Below are positions 9,986-26,999 of a stretch of 40,967 nt of DNA, piece by piece. The stretch lies in the NCBI GenBank assembly GCA_023954745.1, contig JAGSHC010000024.1:1-40967 (forward strand). Reading direction: 5' to 3'. Source of the DNA: Deltaproteobacteria bacterium (lineage in GTDB: Bacteria; Myxococcota_A; UBA796; UBA9615). Both the position numbers and the translations under genes were made by a program. Every line of letters begins with the position of its first letter. Within the stretch, counting starts at the first letter, position 1. A model generated the notes under the pieces. That model was given only the letters and a program-made list of their open reading frames with translations. It ran no database searches and was not told the origin of the DNA.

Positions 9986-11548
<1,563 letters not shown>

Positions 11549-17194: not shown

Positions 17195-18286
17195 TCAGCG
17201 GGAGGGGTAGTCCACCACCCAGCTGACTCCTTCGGTGGAGCGGCGGAGCATCGTCGAGCGCATCGCTCCTTCGGGCCGCGGCGGCAGCGCAATCTCCCCC
17301 TCGAGGTTCGCCACCCGGAAGCGCGTGGCGCTCGGGAGCGCTGGCTGCCCTCCGTCCTCAGAGCCTGGCTCCCACAGCGGAAGGCGGTCGCCACCGACTC
17401 CTTCGATGGTGGAGGGGTCCGCCTCGGAGGGGAAGGCAAAGAAGCGACTCGCGCCGATGAGCGCATCGTCTGCGGGCTCTCCGTCGACGACGACGCCCAC
17501 GGGACTCGTCCAGTGCACCCCGTCCGAGCCGTCGACCCGGAACGGGCCGAGGGGAAACGCACCGGGGACCTGGGGCATCAGCTCGAAGTGCACGGTGCGC
17601 TGCACGTACTCACGCCCCCCGGCTTCTCCCCGAGAGAAGGTCTCCCGTCGCGACTGGATGACGAAGTGCTGGAGACCACGATCCCGCCCGAGGGAGAGCT
17701 GCGCCGCCGAGACGGAGAGGGGCGCGCGGTTGAGCTGCATGACCGCGATGCTCAGGGTCAAGGGCTCCCCGACCCTCACGCGCCCGCTATCCAGCTGCAC
17801 GACGACGTCTTCTTCAGCGCGAGACAACACTCCTGCGGCGAGAAAGACCGCGACGCGGTGGTCCTCGAGCAGCGCGGAGAGGTCTGCGTCATCGCGCACG
17901 TCGTCGGCTCCGTAGCCGCCCGACATCACGGCCCTCTGGAGCCAGGCGATGGCGGCGTCGCGGTCTCCCAGGCGCGCGTGCGCACACGCGAGGTTCCAAG
18001 CAGCGGTCGCCAGGCCCGGATCGACCCCGACGGCGAGCTTGCCGTGGACCAGGGAGCGCTCGACATCTTCGACGAGCAGGAAGGCGTGGGACAGGGTGGC
18101 GCGAGCCAGCGCGTCGTCCGGCGCGGCGTCCAAGCGCCTCAGGAGGGGGGCGATGGCATCAGCCGGCGCCCCGGCGGCGATGGCGCTCTGGGCCGTCTCG
18201 ATGACGGCGCGGCCTGCGTCCTCTGCCTCCTGCCCCGGGCCACACCCGATCAGAGCCGCGACGAGGAGCCAGAGCAGTGATCTCAC
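17195..18286 (-). CDS. TPR-containing lipoprotein with BatD-like domain
   Basis: 363 residues. A lipoprotein signal is present (MRSLLWLLVAALIGC, Cys15). Residues 25-150 form TPR-like helices (RATLSHAFLLVEDVERSLVH, then TAAWNLACAHARLGDRDAAI). The C-terminal half is beta-rich and resembles BatD/oxygen-tolerance immunoglobulin-like domains (VVVQLDSGRVRVGEPLTLSI, the common 'vG..ftl.i.v' opening). The role is probably a periplasmic or outer-membrane scaffold. The start overlaps the stop of the YfiH-type gene by ATGA, so it is the second gene of a coupled pair. It converges on the PilT-like gene with a 12-base gap. Confidence 0.7.
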   Translation of the reverse strand: MRSLLWLLVAALIGCGPGQEAEDAGRAVIETAQSAIAAGAPADAIAPLLRRLDAAPDDALARATLSHAFLLVEDVERSLVHGKLAVGVDPGLATAAWNLACAHARLGDRDAAIAWLQRAVMSGGYGADDVRDDADLSALLEDHRVAVFLAAGVLSRAEEDVVVQLDSGRVRVGEPLTLSIAVMQLNRAPLSVSAAQLSLGRDRGLQHFVIQSRRETFSRGEAGGREYVQRTVHFELMPQVPGAFPLGPFRVDGSDGVHWTSPVGVVVDGEPADDALIGASRFFAFPSEADPSTIEGVGGDRLPLWEPGSEDGGQPALPSATRFRVANLEGEIALPPRPEGAMRSTMLRRSTEGVSWVVDYPSR

Positions 18287-18969
18287 GGTCGCGCGGCCAG
18301 GGCGATGGTCGCCCGCATGCGCCCGGACCGCTCCCCATCCCGCCGATACGAGTCATACCTGGTGGGCTCCGAGAAGGTGCATCCCCCGACGTCCTCGATT
18401 TGGGCGTCGGGGACACCGGCCTGGCGAAGGAGCGCGCGATTCGCGGAACGCAGGTCCACGTGGGGTCGTCCGCGAGGACCGAGCACGACCCGGAGGTCTT
18501 CGTCGGTGAGACCCGTCGCCTTGAGTCCTTGGACGACCTCCGGCCCTACCTCGAAGCGGTCACGGGAGATGCAGGGCCCGATGGCGGCAAAGACGCGCGA
18601 CGGCTCGACTCCGAGTTCCCGGCGGGCGAATGCCAGGGAGGCGCCGACGATGTCCGCAGCCGTTCCCCGCCAACCGGCGTGCACCGCACCCACGGCCCTC
18701 GGCTCCGGGCTCCAGAGGAGGATGGGCACACAGTCCGCGACCCGCACCGCGACGGGCAGATCCGGATCCGAGGTCCACAGGGCGTCCCCGGCCTCGGGAT
18801 TCTCGGGCCATCTCGCGCCCGGGCTCCGATAGACGCGGTGACTTTCGGCGCCGTGCACCTGGGTGTCACACACGACGGCGCGCGGCGGCTCGACCCCGCG
18901 CAAAGCAAAGCCACAAAGGGATAGTTGGGGGTTCGACCAGGTCGGACTCTCGTGCGACGTGCGCGGCAT
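18283..18969 (-). CDS. YfiH-family (DUF152) purine nucleoside phosphorylase / multicopper-oxidase-like
   Basis: 228 residues. The family's three metal ligands are present in order: His in TQVHG, Cys in VADCVPILLW and His in VGAVHAGWRGTA. The closing IEDVGGCTFSEPTRYDSYRRDG is also typical. Members act on purine nucleosides (adenosine, inosine) and some edit peptidoglycan precursors. The protein is short at its N-terminus because the usual opening loop with the 'SLNLG' segment is missing. ATG 18969 is used because no family sequence lies further upstream and TAGGCT is 8 nt before it. The next gene (BatD-like) overlaps by 4 bases. Confidence 0.88.
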   Translation of the reverse strand: MPRTSHESPTWSNPQLSLCGFALRGVEPPRAVVCDTQVHGAESHRVYRSPGARWPENPEAGDALWTSDPDLPVAVRVADCVPILLWSPEPRAVGAVHAGWRGTAADIVGASLAFARRELGVEPSRVFAAIGPCISRDRFEVGPEVVQGLKATGLTDEDLRVVLGPRGRPHVDLRSANRALLRQAGVPDAQIEDVGGCTFSEPTRYDSYRRDGERSGRMRATIALAARP

Positions 18970-18983
18970 CGCGAAAGAGCCTA
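18970..18983 (-). promoter_or_regulatory. Putative near-leaderless promoter (TAGGCT, 8 nt before ATG 18969)
   Basis: On the minus strand TAGGCT (18983-18978) is followed by 8 nt and the ATG. This is the same class as the 6-nt sites but would leave a leader of about 2 nt. Confidence 0.4.
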
Positions 18984-19027
18984 GCCGGGATGCACTGAAT
19001 CCCTGTTCACCGTGCAGATAAAGGCAT

Positions 19028-19057
19028 TTGACAGGGAACCGTGCACGGCCGTAGTTT
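19028..19057 (+). promoter_or_regulatory. Sigma-70 promoter, TTGACA-N18-TAGTTT
   Basis: A perfect -35 (TTGACA, 19028-19033), an 18-base spacer and -10 TAGTTT (19052-19057) form the clearest housekeeping promoter in the window. It drives the Asp-rich lipoprotein at 19147 with a leader of about 80 nt. It shows that TANNNT works as the -10 in this genome. Confidence 0.7.
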
Positions 19058-19146
19058 CCGGCGCTGATGAGGTACCGGGCCTCTCGCAAATGACTCGCGG
19101 CACCCCGGAAGGAACCAGGTGGAGATCCCACCGAACGGAGATGAAT

Positions 19147-20307
19147 ATGCGGACTCAGTGGTGGAACCTTCTTCTGCTCTCGCTCGGCCTCGCCCTTGCC
19201 GGTTGCCCCGCGACGGGTGACGACGACGATGCGGCCAACGACGACGACACCGTCGGCAACGACGACGATGCGGCGTGCGCCGGCATCCTGAGCGTCAGCC
19301 CCGAGCAGGACGAGACGGACGTCTTCGGCGACAAGGTCGCGGTCACCTGGGACGCGGTCCCCACGGGCGGCGCGCTCGCCGTGACGGACGAAGCGGGTGC
19401 TGCCGTCGCCGGCTCCACCACGGACGACGACAACGGTCGCACGCTCATCTTCACCGCGGACAGCACGTTCACGGCGAGCACGACCTTCTCGGTCACCATC
19501 AGCTGGGACTGCGAGGCGGACGTCGCCTACGACTTCACCACGGGCCCCTACGGTGACGCCGTTGGCACGGAGAGCGACCTCATCGGTCGTGCCTTCAACC
19601 TCGACCTCGCATCGGCCGACTTCGTCGAGCCTGCGGGCGTCGGCGCGCTCCTCCAGGGCTTCCTGGTCGACGTGTACGTCATCTTCAACCCCACCGCCGA
19701 CAGCGACCTCGCCAACGGCAACATGCACATCGTGGGCGCGGTCGGCGAGCTCGACGGCGGCGACATCGTGCAGGACGAATGCAACGAGACCCTCCCCTTC
19801 ACCGCTGGTGAGGATGGCGAGGTTGGCACCGCCGATGACGCGCCTGCCGACTGGCAGAACCCCGACATGGAGCTCGAGGCTGACTCCCTGGCCCTCTCGG
19901 TGCAGGGTGTCGAGGCCGAGATTCAGGACCTCCTGATCAGCGCCAAGTTCCACCCCGAGCTGACTGGCTTCGTGGGCGGCACCTTCGCTGGCAAGATCGA
20001 CACCCGCGCGCTCGTGGGCCTGCTCGACAGCGAGGACCCGAACGCCATCTGCGACCTCGTCACCGAGACCGTGGGCATCGAGTGCGAGGACTGCGGCGGC
20101 GGTGAGAACTTCTGCCTCGGCGTGGTCGCCGAGAACGTGAGCGGCAACTACCTGGACAACATCCCCGGTGGCCTGACCCTCCGCAGCTGCGTCGACATCA
20201 TCGACGACGCCACCTGCGGCAACGGTTCCTACACCCTCGACGGCGAGGACAACGGCGACATCGACCCGCTGCTCTGCCCCGACTGGGAAGCGCCCGTCGC
20301 GGACTAA
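19147..20307 (+). CDS. Asp-rich lipoprotein with immunoglobulin-like domain
   Basis: 386 residues. The signal is MRTQWWNLLLLSLGLALAGC with Cys20. It is followed by an unusual acidic linker of three Asp runs (DDDD, DDD, DDD, about residues 24-44). Residues 45-140 resemble a bacterial Ig-like (Big_5) domain: 'ILSVSPEQDETDVFGDKVAV' is the common opening, and TADSTFTASTTFSVTI is the edge strand. The rest is unrecognised and contains paired cysteines (ECEDCGGGENFCLG). ATG 19147 is favoured over the in-frame ATG at 19141 because GGAG is 6 nt upstream. It is probably surface exposed and well expressed, given the strong promoter and terminator. Confidence 0.8.
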   Translation: MRTQWWNLLLLSLGLALAGCPATGDDDDAANDDDTVGNDDDAACAGILSVSPEQDETDVFGDKVAVTWDAVPTGGALAVTDEAGAAVAGSTTDDDNGRTLIFTADSTFTASTTFSVTISWDCEADVAYDFTTGPYGDAVGTESDLIGRAFNLDLASADFVEPAGVGALLQGFLVDVYVIFNPTADSDLANGNMHIVGAVGELDGGDIVQDECNETLPFTAGEDGEVGTADDAPADWQNPDMELEADSLALSVQGVEAEIQDLLISAKFHPELTGFVGGTFAGKIDTRALVGLLDSEDPNAICDLVTETVGIECEDCGGGENFCLGVVAENVSGNYLDNIPGGLTLRSCVDIIDDATCGNGSYTLDGEDNGDIDPLLCPDWEAPVAD

Positions 20308-20333
20308 CGTCCCCAGGGTGAATGATTGACGGA

Positions 20334-20369
20334 GGGCCGTCGGGGATACCCGGCGGCCCTTCTTCTCTT
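20334..20369 (+). terminator. Rho-independent terminator of the Asp-rich lipoprotein
   Basis: An 11-bp stem GGGCCGTCGGG / CCCGGCGGCCC (20334-20344 and 20349-20359, one G-U pair), loop GATA, then the pyrimidine tract TTCTTCTCTT. It lies 27 bases after the stop and is the best canonical terminator in the window. Confidence 0.85.
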
Positions 20370-20372
20370 GGG

Positions 20373-20478
20373 GAGCTTGTGTCGAGGGACACCGGGGGCG
20401 GCGGCGCTCGCTCAGTGGCGTATGGGAGATACGCGTCCTTCGCGGCTTCTTGCCCCCGGCCCCCCTCGACACAAGCTC
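20373..20478 (-). repeat. Long palindrome, family copy 4 (reverse orientation)
   Basis: GAGCTTGTGTCGAGGG (20373-20388) and its exact complement at 20463-20478 form 16-bp arms. After three mismatches, CCGGGGGC/GCCCCCGG extends them. The core hairpin is GCGTAT-GGGAG-ATACGC (20418-20434). Read on the minus strand, the core resembles copy 1 at 3113-3165 closely. It lies 60 bases downstream of the rluD stop. Confidence 0.7.
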
Positions 20479-20537: not shown

Positions 20538-21545
20538 TCAGGCGGGCGCGGTCCAGGGCCCAGGGGCGTCCGGAGCGATGCCTACCCGCTCGCGCAGTGC
20601 GCTGAGCACCGTCATGAACTCCGGCTCGGGGTCCACTCGGAACTGCACGAACTCGTCGGTGCGGGGGTGGATGAACCCGAGGCTGGTGGCGTGCAACAGC
20701 TGCCCCTTGATGGGGGCGAGCAGGGCACGGAGCTTGGGCTCCGAGGGCAGCCAGTGCTTCTTGGTCCCGCCGTACACGTAGTCGCCAATGAGCGGGTGGT
20801 GCATCTCGGAGAGGTGCACTCGGATCTGATGGGTGCGCCCCGTCTCCAGCTGGCACTGCATCAACGCGACCCGGCCGAGCTCCTCGAGGGTCGAGTAGTG
20901 GGTGACGGCGTGCTTGCCACGGGTCACTCGGCCGCTCTGCTTGCGGCGGTCCCGCGGGTCTCGGCCGATGAGCCCCTCCACCGTGCCGCTGGCGGGGACC
21001 GGGCAGCCCCAGCAGAGCATCACGTAGGTGCGCTCGATGGAATGGGCCCTGAACTGCTCCGAGAGGTGGTGGTGGGCCACGTCGTTCTTCGCGATGACCA
21101 GGAGACCACTCGTGTCCTTGTCGATGCGGTGCACCATCCCCGGTCGCTCGATGCCGTTGATGGCGCTGAGCGAGCCGAAGTGGAACAACAGGGCGTTGAC
21201 GAGGGTGCCGTCGAGGTCGTGGGTGGTGGGGTGGACCACCATGCCCGTCGGCTTGTTCACCAGGGCGAGGTCCTCGTCCTCGTAGACGATGTGCAGCGGG
21301 ATGTCCTGGGCCAGGACCTCGGAGGGTCTCGGGGGGGGAATCACCAACTCGATGAGCTCGCCGGGCTTCAGACGCTGCGACCGACGGCAGACGGCGCCGT
21401 CGACGCGCACCTCACCCTCGTCGATGAGGGTCTGCAGGTACGCGCGGCTCAGCTCGGGGAACTTGCCTGCGAGGTACTGGTCGACACGCTGTCCCATGGC
21501 GGACAGAGGGACATCGAGCTCAACGGGACCGGTGGTGCGAGACAT
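20538..21545 (-). CDS. rluD: 23S rRNA pseudouridine synthase, RluD type
   Basis: 335 residues. An N-terminal S4 RNA-binding domain (residues 15-75, RVDQYLAGKFPELSRAYLQT) precedes the RluA-family catalytic domain. The nucleophile is Asp142 in HRIDKDTSGLL. ETGRTHQIRVHLSEMHHPLI is the other family signature. RluD modifies the helix-69 uridines of 23S rRNA; RluC is the alternative, but the S4 layout and the hairpin-loop motifs fit RluD better. A leaderless-type signal lies directly before the start. It follows the J-domain/HTH gene on the same strand but is separated from it by a long palindrome, so it probably has its own promoter. Confidence 0.9.
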   Translation of the reverse strand: MSRTTGPVELDVPLSAMGQRVDQYLAGKFPELSRAYLQTLIDEGEVRVDGAVCRRSQRLKPGELIELVIPPPRPSEVLAQDIPLHIVYEDEDLALVNKPTGMVVHPTTHDLDGTLVNALLFHFGSLSAINGIERPGMVHRIDKDTSGLLVIAKNDVAHHHLSEQFRAHSIERTYVMLCWGCPVPASGTVEGLIGRDPRDRRKQSGRVTRGKHAVTHYSTLEELGRVALMQCQLETGRTHQIRVHLSEMHHPLIGDYVYGGTKKHWLPSEPKLRALLAPIKGQLLHATSLGFIHPRTDEFVQFRVDPEPEFMTVLSALRERVGIAPDAPGPWTAPA

Positions 21546-21573: not shown

Positions 21574-21709
21574 TAAGCCCCCAGGGCTCCAGGGGCTCGA
21601 GGTCAAGGAGGCGAGGAAGGAACGGAGGGAGGCGTGCTGAAGCACGTCGCACCGACGGACGTCGTCGCGGAGCCGACGCTAAGATCGAGTCGCTGGGCCC
21701 CCTGGGCTA
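21574..21709. repeat. Long imperfect palindrome, family copy 2
   Basis: The left arm from 21574 (TAAGCCC, then AGGG, CCAG and CTCGA) matches, with gaps, the complement of 21681-21709. The core hairpin CGTGCT-GA-AGCACG is at 21633-21646. The right arm includes the stop codon of the J-domain/HTH gene (21707-21709). TCAAGGAG at 21603-21610 is shared with copy 1 (3111-3118). Confidence 0.55.
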
Positions 21710-23356
21710 CGGGATGCCGTTGGCCTTGAAGTACCCCGCCACGAACTCCTTCACTGGGAGCTTCAGCAGGCGGGCCACCTGGGTGAGGTAGCCCTTCAGG
21801 TAGACCTTCGCGGGCAGCTCGGCGATGTCGTCTGCCTCCATGTAGCGAAGCATCATGACGCTGATCTTGGTGCGCTCGGAGATGTCCTTGATGGCCACCC
21901 CCAGCTCACGCCGGGCCGTCTTGAGGAACTCGCCGTTCAGACCACCGCAGTCCATCTCCATGGACTCGATGACCTCGCGCGAGAGCGGGGTCACGTGGAG
22001 CGGCCCCGCGGCACAAGTCCGGATGCTGGTGCGGTCCCAGCGACGAGACGTCGCGGCACGACGAGCAAGAGCCAGGGAGCCAGCCGTGGGCTTCGTCTCC
22101 GGGGTGATGGGCGTGGGTGCGGCCGTGGGCAGGTCCGAGACGTTGGAGACGTCTGCGACTGGAGCTGGAGTCGCCGCGACTGGAGCCGCCGCCACGACTG
22201 GAGCGGGAGCCACCACCACCGGCGCCGCCGCCACGACTGGAGCGGGAGCCACCACCACCGGGGCCGCATGAGGCAGCGACACCTGGACGGGATGGCCCGG
22301 GAACGGACGGGTGATGACCGGTGACGCCACGCCAAGGGGCGCTTCCACCTGCGCGACTGCCTGGGGGGGGGGCGCCGCCGCCTGCGGGGCGGGCTCGACC
22401 GTCGTGATCGATGGCGCCGACGACTGGGCCGGCTGGACGCGCGCGCCGGGAAGCGGCATCAGGCTCGGGTCGAAGGGGGCCTTGGCCGCCGGCCGCAACG
22501 TCTGGGGACGGCGCGCCGGAGTGACCGGAGGCATCTGCACCGGAGCAGGCGCTACCAGAGAACTCGTCACCGGCGGCAGAGGAGCGAGGAAGGCCGAGCT
22601 CGGCAGAGACTCGATGGGCTCGCTCAGGTCGTCGTCGTCGAGGGAGATGAACGCTTCGTCGTCATCCCCCTCGAGGCTCACCGGCGACAGGACCGAGATG
22701 GACTGAATCTCCTCCTCGTCGTGGCTGTCGATGTCGATGAGGACCGATGCCCGGGCGACCACCGGCTCGTCGAAGAGCGACATGGGGGGAGCCTGGTGCT
22801 GCGTGGGCCGGGGCACCAGGGCCCGGGCGGGCTCGGTGTCGACCGGGTCTCCCACCACCGTCGGCTGCCGAGGCGGCGGTGACGCCACCGCCGGCATCTG
22901 CACGCTCGACACGGGAGAAGGGTTGTAGCGCGGCTCCGGCGGGATCGAGCGCAAGGAGGCCGACACTGGCTCCTCGGCGACGCGGTCCGCCCTGCGACGC
23001 ACCTCGCTGAGTCGACCCACCTGACGCGCGAGCTGCTCGATGGGGCTGGGCCCATCGAGGTCGTGCACCAGGTCGAAGAAGACGTCCGGATCGCGCGGCA
23101 CCACCGCTCCCGGCCGGGCCGACCGGTGGTACTTCGCGTACCGCCGAGCGAGCTCCGGATCCGAGAGGATCCGGAAGGCCTCGTCGATCTTTGCGCTGAT
23201 CGCCTCGGTCTCCTCAGGTGCGTAGAGGCTGTGAATCGCCATCGAGTCCGGTCGGAAACTCTGACGCACGAGCCTGTACGCCCGCTTCACCTCTTCATTG
23301 GTGGCCCCGGGGGAGACACTGAGAATCTCGTAGTAGTCCTGTGTGACGAACTTCAT
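21707..23356 (-). CDS. J-domain / RodZ-type HTH fusion protein
   Basis: 549 residues in three parts. Residues 5-75 are a J-domain (QDYYEILSVSPGATNEEVKR) in which the Hsp70-activating HPD tripeptide is Arg35-Pro36-Asp37, so the key His is gone. Residues 80-470 are a long, disordered Pro/Ala/Val-rich linker with acidic patches (DSHDEEEIQSIS, EGDDDEAFISLDDDDL) and a 13-residue tandem repeat. Residues 475-549 are a RodZ-type helix-turn-helix (GEFLKTARRELGVAIKDISE, then LRYMEADDIAELPAKVYLKG). RodZ normally has this HTH first, followed by a membrane segment; here it is last and there is no membrane segment. ATG 23356 opens the J-domain. It follows the ParA-like gene by 92 bases. It may be a cytoskeletal or polarity scaffold, but this is inference. 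Confidence 0.8.
   Translation of the reverse strand: MKFVTQDYYEILSVSPGATNEEVKRAYRLVRQSFRPDSMAIHSLYAPEETEAISAKIDEAFRILSDPELARRYAKYHRSARPGAVVPRDPDVFFDLVHDLDGPSPIEQLARQVGRLSEVRRRADRVAEEPVSASLRSIPPEPRYNPSPVSSVQMPAVASPPPRQPTVVGDPVDTEPARALVPRPTQHQAPPMSLFDEPVVARASVLIDIDSHDEEEIQSISVLSPVSLEGDDDEAFISLDDDDLSEPIESLPSSAFLAPLPPVTSSLVAPAPVQMPPVTPARRPQTLRPAAKAPFDPSLMPLPGARVQPAQSSAPSITTVEPAPQAAAPPPQAVAQVEAPLGVASPVITRPFPGHPVQVSLPHAAPVVVAPAPVVAAAPVVVAPAPVVAAAPVAATPAPVADVSNVSDLPTAAPTPITPETKPTAGSLALARRAATSRRWDRTSIRTCAAGPLHVTPLSREVIESMEMDCGGLNGEFLKTARRELGVAIKDISERTKISVMMLRYMEADDIAELPAKVYLKGYLTQVARLLKLPVKEFVAGYFKANGIP
22185..22262 (-). repeat. 39-bp tandem repeat, two copies
   Basis: Copies at 22185-22223 and 22224-22262 are near identical and encode the 13-residue unit VVVAPAPVVAAAP in the linker of the J-domain/HTH fusion. 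The period is in frame, so copy-number change would only lengthen or shorten the linker. Confidence 0.75.
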
Positions 23357-23448
23357 CGTCGATCTGCCATCCGCTCGTGGCCCCGTCGGGCCACATACTG
23401 CTGTGCTGCTGCTGCTTCGTACCGCTGTCTGCTTCTGCTCACCGAGGC

Positions 23449-24519
23449 TCAACGCCAGGGTCGTTCTCCTCCGATTGGGGCCTCCTGCCCCGCCGATTCC
23501 TGGGCGAGCTCGGCGAGGGCTGAGAGATCAGCCCGCCAACCGCCACGGGTGGGAAGGTCCACCCCTTCGTCCATGCGCGTGAGCGCCTCATCCAATTCCG
23601 TTCCCAGAAGGTCTCCGGCGTCGGCCCCGGGCCGCGCCCGACGCCGGCGCGCGCGAATCCACGCGTCCTCGTCCCACGGCAGTGCAGCCCGGAAGCGCAG
23701 CTCGATACCCAGTCCATGGCCCGCAGCCGTCACCAGGGCATGCCCGACGTCGATGTCGTCGCCTCGGCGCACTCGGTTCATCACCAGGAAGACAGGCCGG
23801 CCACCGACGTGAGCCGCGAGGTCGTCCGCGCTGACACCCGCGAGCCGCGCGGTGGTGCGCATCCAGGTCCCCGTGCGTCCGCCGCACTCTGTCCAGGCGT
23901 CCCCGAGGACCCGGTCTGCCCGTGCCGCCCCGAGACGACGAGCCAACCAGGGGCGCGCGAGTCGTGCAAAGACACGGCCCAGCAAGCGAGCCGTAGCCTC
24001 CAGGGGCAGCCGTTCGGGCACCGCCACCAGGAGCGGGAAGTCCGCGGCGAGCCACACGTCGAGAGCTGCGTCGTGCGCGCCTCCCGGGAGGTCGAGCAAG
24101 ACCTCGTCCTGGGTGAGACGAGCCGCGTTGGTCCAAAGCCGCGCCGCGTCGCGGCGGGTGGGGTCGGCCGAGGTGGGTCCAGGACCCGGAACCAGGCTCA
24201 GCTCGTGGTGCAGCGTGGTCGCAATGGGCTCGAGCCCCTTGCCGCCGGACCACTGGGCCCGCGGAGTACTGACGTCGAGGAGCGTTCCGAGCGTCGGCCC
24301 CGTCCAGTCACCGTCGACCAGGCATGCCGACTTGCCTCGACGGACCAGACGCGCCGCCAGCGTCACCGCGAGGGTCGACCGACCGACCCCTCCGGATCCG
24401 GAAGCGAATGCCCAGGTCCTTGGCGCACGGGCACCCATCGCACCGCCGCGAATGCGGCGGAGCTTGGGGACCGGTGCACGGTCTCCGGGAGCGATGACGG
24501 GTGCGCGAAGTCGACCCAC
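23449..24519 (-). CDS. ParA/MinD-like protein with degenerate P-loop
   Basis: 356 residues of the SIMIBI MinD/FlhG/ParA fold. The P-loop reads ASGSGGVGRST where the family has SGKGGVGKT: signature Lys42 is Ser and the phosphate-binding Lys47 is Arg, so ATP hydrolysis is doubtful. The second strand (KSACLVDGDWTGPTLGTLLD) keeps the Asp that contacts magnesium, and DEVLLDLPGGAHDAALD is the third conserved strand. The GTG at 24519 gives a basic N-terminal tail; ATG 24438 is the alternative. The J-domain/HTH gene follows 92 bases later in the same direction, so the two are probably cotranscribed. Likely a localisation or scaffold factor rather than an active partition ATPase. Confidence 0.75.
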   Translation of the reverse strand: MGRLRAPVIAPGDRAPVPKLRRIRGGAMGARAPRTWAFASGSGGVGRSTLAVTLAARLVRRGKSACLVDGDWTGPTLGTLLDVSTPRAQWSGGKGLEPIATTLHHELSLVPGPGPTSADPTRRDAARLWTNAARLTQDEVLLDLPGGAHDAALDVWLAADFPLLVAVPERLPLEATARLLGRVFARLARPWLARRLGAARADRVLGDAWTECGGRTGTWMRTTARLAGVSADDLAAHVGGRPVFLVMNRVRRGDDIDVGHALVTAAGHGLGIELRFRAALPWDEDAWIRARRRRARPGADAGDLLGTELDEALTRMDEGVDLPTRGGWRADLSALAELAQESAGQEAPIGGERPWR

Positions 24520-24620
24520 GAAAAATTCCCATTGCGCCTCGACCGCTTGAGAACCCAGGAGCCAAAGGGATCATCGGCGAGGCGATCGGGGGCATCCTAA
24601 GCGCGGGGGATCATCGCGCG

Positions 24621-24679
24621 CAAGAACCATCTTGCATCGCGCACACGTTTTCCAAACCCTGTGAATCAAAAGGTTCTTG
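24621..24679. repeat. 8-bp inverted repeat CAAGAACC / GGTTCTTG
   Basis: Arms at 24621-24628 and 24672-24679 enclose a relatively AT-rich stretch (CACGTTTTCCAAA, TGTGAATCAAAAGG) unusual for this GC-rich DNA. It adjoins the DnaA-box cluster. Confidence 0.45.
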
Positions 24680-24696
24680 GCCGATCTACCAGAGCC

Positions 24697-24752
24697 TGTG
24701 GAGAGTTTTTCCACACCTGTGGATAACTCGATCAGTCCTGGTTTGTGGGAAA
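24697..24752. promoter_or_regulatory. Cluster of DnaA-box-like sites
   Basis: TTTTCCACA (24707-24715) and TGTGGATAA (24718-24726, reverse of TTATCCACA) both fit the DnaA consensus TTWTNCACA and face each other 2 bp apart. TGTGGAGAG (24697-24705) and TGTGGGAAA (24744-24752) are weaker reverse-strand matches. The first three begin 10-11 bp apart, on one helical face. It may be an origin of replication or a DnaA-titration/regulatory site between the ParA-like and kinase genes. Confidence 0.5.
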
Positions 24753-26999
24753 ACGCGCCGAAGGAGAGGTGGTGCGCCTTTCCTCGGGATCCGGAGCCGG
24801 TGCGAGCATGTCCTCGACGGTCGTGAGGGCGTCCGGTTCGTCGAGATCCGGATCCGGATCCGGATCCGGATCCGGAAGGGGAAGTCGAAGCGCGAAGCTG
24901 GTGCCGCGGCCCGGCCGACTCTGAATCTCAATCTCCCCTCCGTGGGCGCGCATGATGCGTTCGCAGATGGGCAGCCCCAGCCCCGTCCCGCTCGCCTTCG
25001 TCGTGAAGAACGGGATGAAGAGCTTGCGCGCATCCTCCTCGGTGATGCCGCGCCCCTCGTCAGCGAAGGTGAACTCCACATAGCGAAGCGAGTGCAGACC
25101 CCCGCGGCGCACCCTCACCATCGCTCCGGGCGCCATCGTGCGCAGGGAGTCGACACCCGGTGCCTGAGTCCCTCGTGTGCCGACCCGCGTCCGCACCGTC
25201 AGGGTGCCGCCCTCTTGCTGCATCGCTTCGACGCCGTTGCGTACCACGTTGAGAACGACCTGCTTCAGCTTCTCGATGTCCATGGGCACCGGCGGCAGGT
25301 CCACCCCCGCCTCGTAGTTCACGTGCACGCCCCGCGGCAGTCCCTCCGCCACCACGAGCGCCATGACTCCCTGCATCAGGGTGTCGGGCTGCAGGTCCAT
25401 GCCATGGACCTGCATGGGGCGGGCGTAGTCGAGGAACTGGCTGACGACCCCGTTCAGCCGGTCGACCTCCTCCACGATGATTCCGAGAAACTCCCGTTCC
25501 AGGTCAGCCATGTCGCGGCGATTCAACACCTGCACTGCACCCTTGATGGCACCCAACGGGTTCCGGATCTCGTGGGCCAGACCGGCCGACATCTCACCCA
25601 GCGCCGCCAGGCGGTCCCGCTCCTTGGCCTGCTCGAAGGCCTGCGAGTTGTCCAAGGCGACGGCGAGCTGGTCCGCGAGCTCCTGGAGAGCGCGGAGCTC
25701 CGCGATGGAGAAGCGCGGGGCGCCCGGCTGCGTGCGAAGTCCCCACAGCCCCACGACCGTGGTTCCAATCTGGAGCGGGACACACAGCTCGGCCTGCATG
25801 CTCTGCATGGTCGCCATCACCGACTCGATCCAGTCCGGCCGCGCCGCCCCAGGCCGCTTGACCGCCTCCGACTCCAGCGCCTCCAGCTCGTACGAGGCGC
25901 GCCCCTCGAGGTACCCATCGATGAACGGCCGGTGCGGAATGGCGGCCAGCGGGTCCTGCTCAGGATGGCCCTCCACGCCGCGAAGGCGGTAGTACCCGCG
26001 GTCCTCGTCGTAGAGGTAGACCGTGGCGAGGTCCACCCGCCCCTCCATGTAGCTGCTGTCGAGTAGGGCCTCGAGCAGCGGACCCTCCTCGATGAGCCCC
26101 GGCAACCGCCGCTTCAGCCCTCCGAGAGCCAGCAACCAGTGGACCCGCTCTCGGGAGAAGAGCCGGTTTACGCGGTCTTCGATGAGCTGCTTCAGGGGCT
26201 CGTACAGAATGAGGAGAAGGACCGTGGCGAGCAGGATGTTCACGCCCTCGGCGAAGGGGCCAGTGCGCGGAGACACGAGGCGTGCGACGACCGCGTAGAG
26301 CGTCCCCAGCGCCGTCGTCATGCCGATGAAGACCACGAACCGGGTCGCAATCTCCGCCCGGTCCAGCAGCCGGTTGCTCGTGATGATGATGCCGAGCAAG
26401 TACACGTAGGCGGCCGTCGCGAGGGACCCGAAGGGCGGCAAAAGGAACGGGCTGCCCGTCTGTCCGGCCCAGAGATTCCAGTCGAACAGCGCCATCTCGA
26501 GGGCGATGAGCAGGATGGCGGCGAGCCCCCCCCAGCTCAGGTAGCGCATGCGTCGCCGCTCGTTCTCCAGCTCCAGCTTCTGCACGAGCCGCTGCACCCA
26601 GAACCACTGCACCGCAAGGCCGCCGAACACGAGGATGCTGTTCACCGTGATGGTGACGCGACTCCGGGAGCCAAACCACACGATGATTCCCAGCTGCACC
26701 ATCGCGGCGGCCACCAGAACGACCGTGAGAAGCCTGAAGCGCGGCCGGACCCGGGACAGGAGCTGCTCGTAGACCCGGAACGACGACGGCGCGACGAACA
26801 GCGCGGACGCGAGCAGGGCGTATCGCCAGGCTTCGTCCTTGGTGAGAATCAGCGCGAAGAGGCTGAGAAAGACCACCGAGATGACGCCTGCCATCAAGGC
26901 GTACACCTGATTCAGGGGGTCCCGGGGATTGCGAATGACCGTGGACACCGCCATGGACAGGGCGATGAGCGCAGTGAACAGAGGCGCGACGGTCTCCAC
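24732..26999 (-). CDS. Membrane sensor histidine kinase with GAF domain
   Basis: 755 residues. The first 290 contain about eight hydrophobic segments (for example LMAGVISVVFLSLFALIL, ILLIALEMALF, GVNILLATVLLLILYEPL), a sensor of the membrane-embedded N-terminal type. A GAF domain follows at about 310-450 (ELCVPLQIGTTVVGLWGLRT). HisKA has His476 in SAGLAHEIRNPLGAIKGA. The ATPase domain has NVVRNGVEAMQ, DEGRGI and GTGLGLPICERI. The C-terminal tail contains an Asp-Pro repeat (PDPDPDPDPDLDEPD) from a GATCCG microsatellite. The GTG start is 6 nt from a TAGTCT hexamer that overlaps the divergent selA promoter. No response regulator is adjacent. Confidence 0.92.
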   Translation of the reverse strand: METVAPLFTALIALSMAVSTVIRNPRDPLNQVYALMAGVISVVFLSLFALILTKDEAWRYALLASALFVAPSSFRVYEQLLSRVRPRFRLLTVVLVAAAMVQLGIIVWFGSRSRVTITVNSILVFGGLAVQWFWVQRLVQKLELENERRRMRYLSWGGLAAILLIALEMALFDWNLWAGQTGSPFLLPPFGSLATAAYVYLLGIIITSNRLLDRAEIATRFVVFIGMTTALGTLYAVVARLVSPRTGPFAEGVNILLATVLLLILYEPLKQLIEDRVNRLFSRERVHWLLALGGLKRRLPGLIEEGPLLEALLDSSYMEGRVDLATVYLYDEDRGYYRLRGVEGHPEQDPLAAIPHRPFIDGYLEGRASYELEALESEAVKRPGAARPDWIESVMATMQSMQAELCVPLQIGTTVVGLWGLRTQPGAPRFSIAELRALQELADQLAVALDNSQAFEQAKERDRLAALGEMSAGLAHEIRNPLGAIKGAVQVLNRRDMADLEREFLGIIVEEVDRLNGVVSQFLDYARPMQVHGMDLQPDTLMQGVMALVVAEGLPRGVHVNYEAGVDLPPVPMDIEKLKQVVLNVVRNGVEAMQQEGGTLTVRTRVGTRGTQAPGVDSLRTMAPGAMVRVRRGGLHSLRYVEFTFADEGRGITEEDARKLFIPFFTTKASGTGLGLPICERIMRAHGGEIEIQSRPGRGTSFALRLPLPDPDPDPDPDLDEPDALTTVEDMLAPAPDPEERRTTSPSARFPTNQD
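24845..24874 (-). repeat. GATCCG hexanucleotide microsatellite (5 perfect copies)
   Basis: Five tandem GATCCG units encode alternating Pro and Asp in the C-terminal tail of the histidine kinase. The hexamer keeps frame on expansion or contraction. The tract is also a dense run of GATC sites. Confidence 0.85.

Follow-up and report, generated by a model that had tools for sequence, protein, structure and literature searches.

The stretch of DNA analysed here (the window) is a single 41-kb contig, C48, of an assembly (G000) of 7.13 Mb in 481 contigs. It carries a cluster of DnaA boxes at the gap between a histidine kinase gene and a gene for a MinD/ParA-like ATPase. The genes and features of this region are the following:

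18283-20472, minus strand: gene with a Cu-oxidase_4 (YfiH-type) domain, next in order in three family relatives
20538-21545, minus strand: RluA/RluD-family pseudouridine synthase gene, gene order kept in three family relatives
21707-23452, minus strand: DnaJ - HTH_25 (RodZ-type HTH) gene, overlapping the MinD/ParA-like gene by 4 bp
23449-24519, minus strand: MinD/ParA-like ATPase gene, variant P-loop GSGGVGRST, GTG start at 24519
24520-24731, no strand: intergenic region of 212 bp, contains boxes and, putatively, the promoter
24621-24679: inverted repeat between the boxes and the ParA-like gene, arms CAAGAACC (24621-24628) and GGTTCTTG (24672-24679), located by eye
24697-24705, minus strand: weaker DnaA box CTCTCCACA, 2 mismatches, 1 bp off the facing pair
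24707-24715, plus strand: DnaA box TTTTCCACA, 1 mismatch, second member of the facing pair, 2-bp gap
24718-24726, minus strand: DnaA box TTATCCACA, perfect, first (promoter-distal) member of the facing pair, at -207 from the ParA-like start codon
24744-24752, minus strand: weaker DnaA box TTTCCCACA, 2 mismatches, within the 3' end (last codons) of the kinase reading frame
24732-26999, minus strand: GAF - histidine kinase gene, upstream of the candidate operator

The GTG start of the MinD/ParA-like gene is backed by the alignment of the upstream regions and by the protein alignment. The DnaJ/HTH_25 gene is likely to form one operon with it and the rluD gene probably belongs to the same operon; the order ParA-like, DnaJ/HTH_25, RluD-family, Cu-oxidase_4 is common to the relatives G002, G003 and G005. 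The top NCBIfam match of the ParA-like protein is 'KGGVGR-motif variant AAA ATPase', under the cut-off of that family, and the solved structures closest to it belong to iron-sulfur-carrier (Mrp-like) and MinD-type proteins. Neither lysine of the deviant Walker A motif is present in its P-loop, and a P-loop of the form G-S/C-G-G-V/L-G-R was present in all four family copies that were aligned. A chromosomal parA of a parABS system was ruled out on the grounds of this P-loop, of the neighbouring genes (histidine kinase and DnaJ/HTH_25) and of the contig, on which no parS site with up to two mismatches was found. Judged from its sequence, the gene is a variant P-loop ATPase gene in a DnaJ/RluD operon and not chromosomal parA. 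The combination of a MinD-type ATPase with a DnaJ/RodZ-HTH protein suggests that the operon may have a cell-positioning or envelope task.

The initial annotation had described two boxes facing each other 2 bp apart, two weaker ones at 24697 and 24744, a phasing of 10-11 bp and an inverted repeat beside the boxes. The facing pair and both weaker boxes were confirmed. The box starts are spaced by 10, 11 and then 26 bp, so that helical phasing is valid for three of the four boxes and fails for the last one. The inverted repeat was located as well; it overlaps a block that is partly common to some relatives in the alignment and is possibly a promoter or a second operator. An additional weak facing pair (TGATTCACA/TTTTCCAAA), reported by the pair finder at -149 in this genome, was left out of the facing-pair counts. 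By a mechanical cluster score the cluster is the top-scoring DnaA-box cluster within the window, and the perfect box TTATCCACA has only three copies in the whole 7.13-Mb genome, one at the window site and two upstream of iscS on contig C328. The pattern TTWTCCACA occurs five times in the 7.13 Mb versus two for the reversed control pattern; the window pair accounts for two of these and a second pair, also upstream of iscS on C328, for another two. When the 303 bases before the ParA-like gene were shuffled 3000 times with dinucleotides preserved, no shuffle reached the observed box score. The DnaA protein of this genome is intact, with all domains present and the usual DNA-binding signature.

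A DnaA-box cluster is present in the gap between the kinase and the ParA-like gene in all six family genomes examined (G000-G005). With the gap as DNA query against 39 genomes, including its own, no match was obtained in the other five family genomes; the ParA-like protein is 49-62% identical in these five (the copies of G001 and G004 are cut by contig ends, that of G004 being in two pieces). Shuffling of each of the six regions 3000 times gave 0, 0, 1, 0, 0 and 0 shuffles that reached the box score. The two facing boxes are 2 or 3 bp apart, and relative to the ParA-like start codon the pair starts at -207, -197, -207, -208, -189 and -189 (mean -199.5, sd 9 bp; range 189-208 bp). The kinase reading frame ends about 17, 113, 159, 190, 245 and 210 bp from the reference box (sd 81); for G001 an intergenic length of 177, obtained by frame walk, disagreed with another estimate and was left out. 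Thus the ParA-like gene, described as adjacent in the initial annotation, proved to be the neighbour from which the spacing of the site is nearly constant. Of the two facing boxes, one is degenerate in G001 and G003 (CCTTCCACA; TTGTCCCCA). In G001, G002, G003 and G005 the facing pair is preceded, at 2-3 bp, by an extra box in tandem orientation. In G005 the only perfect box and the only strict facing core of the assembly are both found at the ParA-like site.

Outside the family, matches to the ParA-like protein at 43 bits or less were left out, and the distant genomes covered were G006 and G008. At their orthologous ParA-like - DnaJ/HTH genes, which have the same gene order in G006 and are of the same class in G008, the cluster is absent. 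This implies that DnaA control is not required for the operon as such. In G008 six DnaA boxes lie within about 190 bp on contig C226 (L011, 9953-10137) next to unrelated genes, and a 22-bp stretch of this cluster, identical to the window pair, was the sole non-self match of the gap in the DNA search. As an ortholog of the window site the cluster was rejected, since the neighbouring genes differ; the GC skew has no turn at that contig. A second strong box cluster of G008 is located at C74:32515-32737. Full-length DnaA was not found in G008 with PF00308 (best match 26 bits; assembly 94% complete); the assembly probably has a gap there.

Perfect-box loci were sorted into groups according to the neighbour genes that they share. 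Besides the ParA-like site, the best-kept box-bearing group was that of nrdJ, the gene of a B12-dependent ribonucleotide reductase, with DnaA boxes upstream in all five family genomes in which the gene was found; G005 (73% complete), where it was not found, is outside this count. The nrdJ boxes face each other as well, 2-4 bp apart. A B12 riboswitch before nrdJ, suspected from a look at the sequence, was dropped; Rfam gave no match for the window, L158 or L117. Boxes upstream of iscS were found in three of the six family genomes, namely in both members of the genus (G000 and G001) and in G004, and in none of G002, G003 and G005; in L009 12010-12121 (G000:C328) and G001:C190:20803-20912 they are mostly arranged as facing pairs and extend over about 100 bp. 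Smaller box-bearing groups, of two or three genomes each, were a MobA-like transferase (G002, G003), a ketoreductase/acyltransferase region (G000, G001, G004) and a ParB_N-domain protein with an AbrB/MazE-like start (L110 615-1838, L072, L061), with boxes near its gene in G003, G004 and G006. Strict facing cores (TCCACA-N2,3-TGTGGA) were present 17 times in the six family genomes, against two for the reversed control, and tandem cores (TCCACA-N5,6-TCCACA) 17 times against nine. Four of the 17 facing cores are at the ParA-like site and four at nrdJ. Another four (G000 C284, G001 C23, G003 C237 and G004 C575) lie in one conserved coding sequence and were discarded as a coding coincidence, so that these are not regulatory.

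The cluster is best explained as a candidate DnaA operator of the MinD/ParA-like - DnaJ/RodZ-HTH operon and as part of a small DnaA regulon, a reading to which we assign a probability of about 0.6. A head-to-head dimer of DnaA would occupy the facing boxes, about 190-210 bp upstream of the start codon. Depending on its amount or nucleotide state, bound DnaA would then raise or lower transcription from a promoter that is presumed to lie in the gap, and expression of the operon would thereby keep step with the replication cycle. Sites of this kind before nrdJ and, in some genomes, before iscS would complete the regulon. Boxes at a nearly fixed distance before the MinD/ParA-like gene make it probable that expression of this gene is tied to replication. 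In favour of an operator count the position, which is held relative to the ParA-like start (sd 9) and varies relative to the kinase (sd 81), and the facing boxes at nrdJ, a gene of a type known to be under DnaA control. The clusters in all six family genomes, the box score against shuffles, the excess of strict facing cores over the reversed control, the intact DnaA and the skew, which turns at dnaA-dnaN, count in its favour as well. Against it stand the about 200 bp to the start codon, which is far unless the leader is long, and the absence of a sigma-70-like promoter on the minus strand, that of the gene, within the gap. Such promoters are often overlooked in GC-rich bacteria. The degenerate pair member in G001 and G003, the orthologous operon of G006 and G008 that lacks the cluster, and the restriction of the iscS boxes to three of the six family genomes also count against an operator. 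The same is true of the three-box order in four relatives; it is similar to the core of DARS in E. coli, whose main role is not that of a promoter element.

This last point bears on a rather less probable alternative, in which the site acts on DnaA itself, either as a regulating locus like DARS or datA or by titration; titration had also been considered in the initial annotation. DnaA would be bound there so that its nucleotide state or the amount of free DnaA changes, and the place before the ParA-like gene would be incidental. When measured in E. coli MG1655, the cores of DARS1 and DARS2 read > 3 > 5 < (tandem gap 3, facing gap 5). The element > 2/3 > 2/3 < of four of the six family genomes likewise consists of three boxes that form one tandem and one facing pair in the same order. 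Moreover, DARS is described as being distinguished by head-to-head contact of DnaA at its boxes I and II (PMC8682772, PMC5742627), and the window boxes outscore the boxes that this genome has between dnaA and dnaN. However, the facing gap in the family is 2-3 bp and not 5, and at the window site, with no clear tandem partner on that side, the DARS core arrangement is incomplete. In contrast to DARS, the family site has an almost constant spacing from one start codon and a variable one from the other gene; promoter control therefore fits better than titration. The same pair is moreover found at nrdJ, a classical type of DnaA-controlled gene, and the boxes are few in comparison with datA, which is described as two consensus boxes amid closely spaced weaker ones (PMC5835720).

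It is unlikely that the pair merely resembles DnaA boxes and is in reality the palindromic operator of another regulator, or a hairpin or terminator in the RNA of the kinase gene. The pair is near-palindromic, with folds of modest quality (z -1.7 and -2.0), but no terminator-like site was found in the gap and the two arms are identical in none of the six family genomes. Each arm varies separately, without compensation, as single DnaA boxes do; in several genomes arms are the exact DnaA consensus, and the same motif recurs at nrdJ. The RNA hairpin or terminator was rejected because of the missing terminator-like site, the modest folds and the arms that are never identical.

An origin of replication at the window site, the first reading of the initial annotation, is contradicted by the GC skew of the relatives and has become very improbable. 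Like an oriC of the dnaA-dnaN type, the site has DnaA boxes in an AT-richer gap, and its consensus boxes and their helical phasing would suit an origin. In G002 (C144; L076 about 10790-10850) a very AT-rich stretch that resembles an unwinding element lies beside the boxes; the skew does not turn there. The skew of the own genome is too weak to decide on the origin, both at the window cluster (0.001/-0.019) and at dnaA-dnaN (-0.029/+0.009), and the verdict rests on the relatives. In the two with strong skew the cumulative minimum is at dnaA-dnaN (G002 C21:22228; G003 C86:22079), away from the cluster. The skew of the 10-kb flanks changes sign at dnaA-dnaN (-0.052/+0.107 in G002; -0.056/+0.080 in G003) and does not at the orthologous cluster (-0.060/-0.070 in G002; +0.055/+0.039 in G003, with 6.9-kb flanks). 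This indicates that oriC of the family is at dnaA-dnaN. The weakly skewed G001 also has the minimum of its dnaA contig just past dnaA (C138:33970). Exact parS-type sites are located 4-8 kb from dnaA in G001, G004 and G006, and this genome has near-matches at about 6 kb from the gene. In G001 the three parS sites at C138:25155-25325, about 7 kb from dnaA, have a perfect DnaA box (25225) between them. The window has neither dnaA nor dnaN, as had been noted from the start. Both are on contig C58, and the gap between them, with an AT-rich stretch and boxes of its own, is the better oriC candidate. Chance clustering of DnaA-like words, for which the GC content of the gap (58% vs about 68% in the surroundings) might be invoked, can practically be dismissed in view of the dinucleotide shuffles, the six of six family genomes with a cluster and the mere three perfect boxes in the whole genome.

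If the cluster is a DnaA operator, the replication initiator would be tied to ribonucleotide reductase and to a MinD/ParA-like operon. A DnaA regulon would then be readable from sequence alone in genomes assembled from uncultured bacteria of the Deltaproteobacteria type, because consensus boxes are so rare in such genomes. This raises the question whether facing boxes serve gene control and other arrangements initiation. A more speculative possibility, which we put forward only tentatively, is that DnaA reads two codes in the family: head-to-head double boxes would serve as dimer operators (MinD/ParA-like operon, nrdJ and partly iscS), and weaker, scattered ones would direct initiation at dnaA-dnaN. 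A MinD/ParA-like - DnaJ/RodZ-HTH positioning module might then be timed directly by the initiator, and facing boxes, a geometry that is partly that of a DARS core, could render these promoters sensitive to the nucleotide state of DnaA.

In the portions of the literature that were available, no report was found of a DnaA-controlled MinD/ParA-like - DnaJ/HTH operon. The clusters of B. subtilis and Streptomyces and datA of E. coli are described as repressing untimely initiation; the window site differs from them by having only three to four boxes and by a position that is tied to one gene. At an iscS region DnaA was found in vivo in B. subtilis (PMC4447404). DnaA control of ribonucleotide reductase genes is reported as established in E. 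coli and as proposed in B. subtilis and Caulobacter (PMC8203912). According to PMC11317965, DnaA of E. coli binds 16 regions, 15 of which, nrdA and nrdD included, have a double box with the two boxes 2-3 bp apart. The family site is like nrdA(B) and the other double-box sites of E. coli in that two boxes 2-3 bp apart stand upstream of a gene (PMC11317965; PMC8203912). The main oddity is the orientation: the E. coli double boxes are tandem in the table printed in PMC11317965, whereas the main pair of the window is facing, with a gap of 2 bp, and so is not a double box of the E. coli type. The weaker neighbour boxes in four family relatives are in tandem, unlike the main pair. As far as these sources describe it, the DnaA regulon of E. 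coli shares with the box set of the family that both take in ribonucleotide reductase genes.
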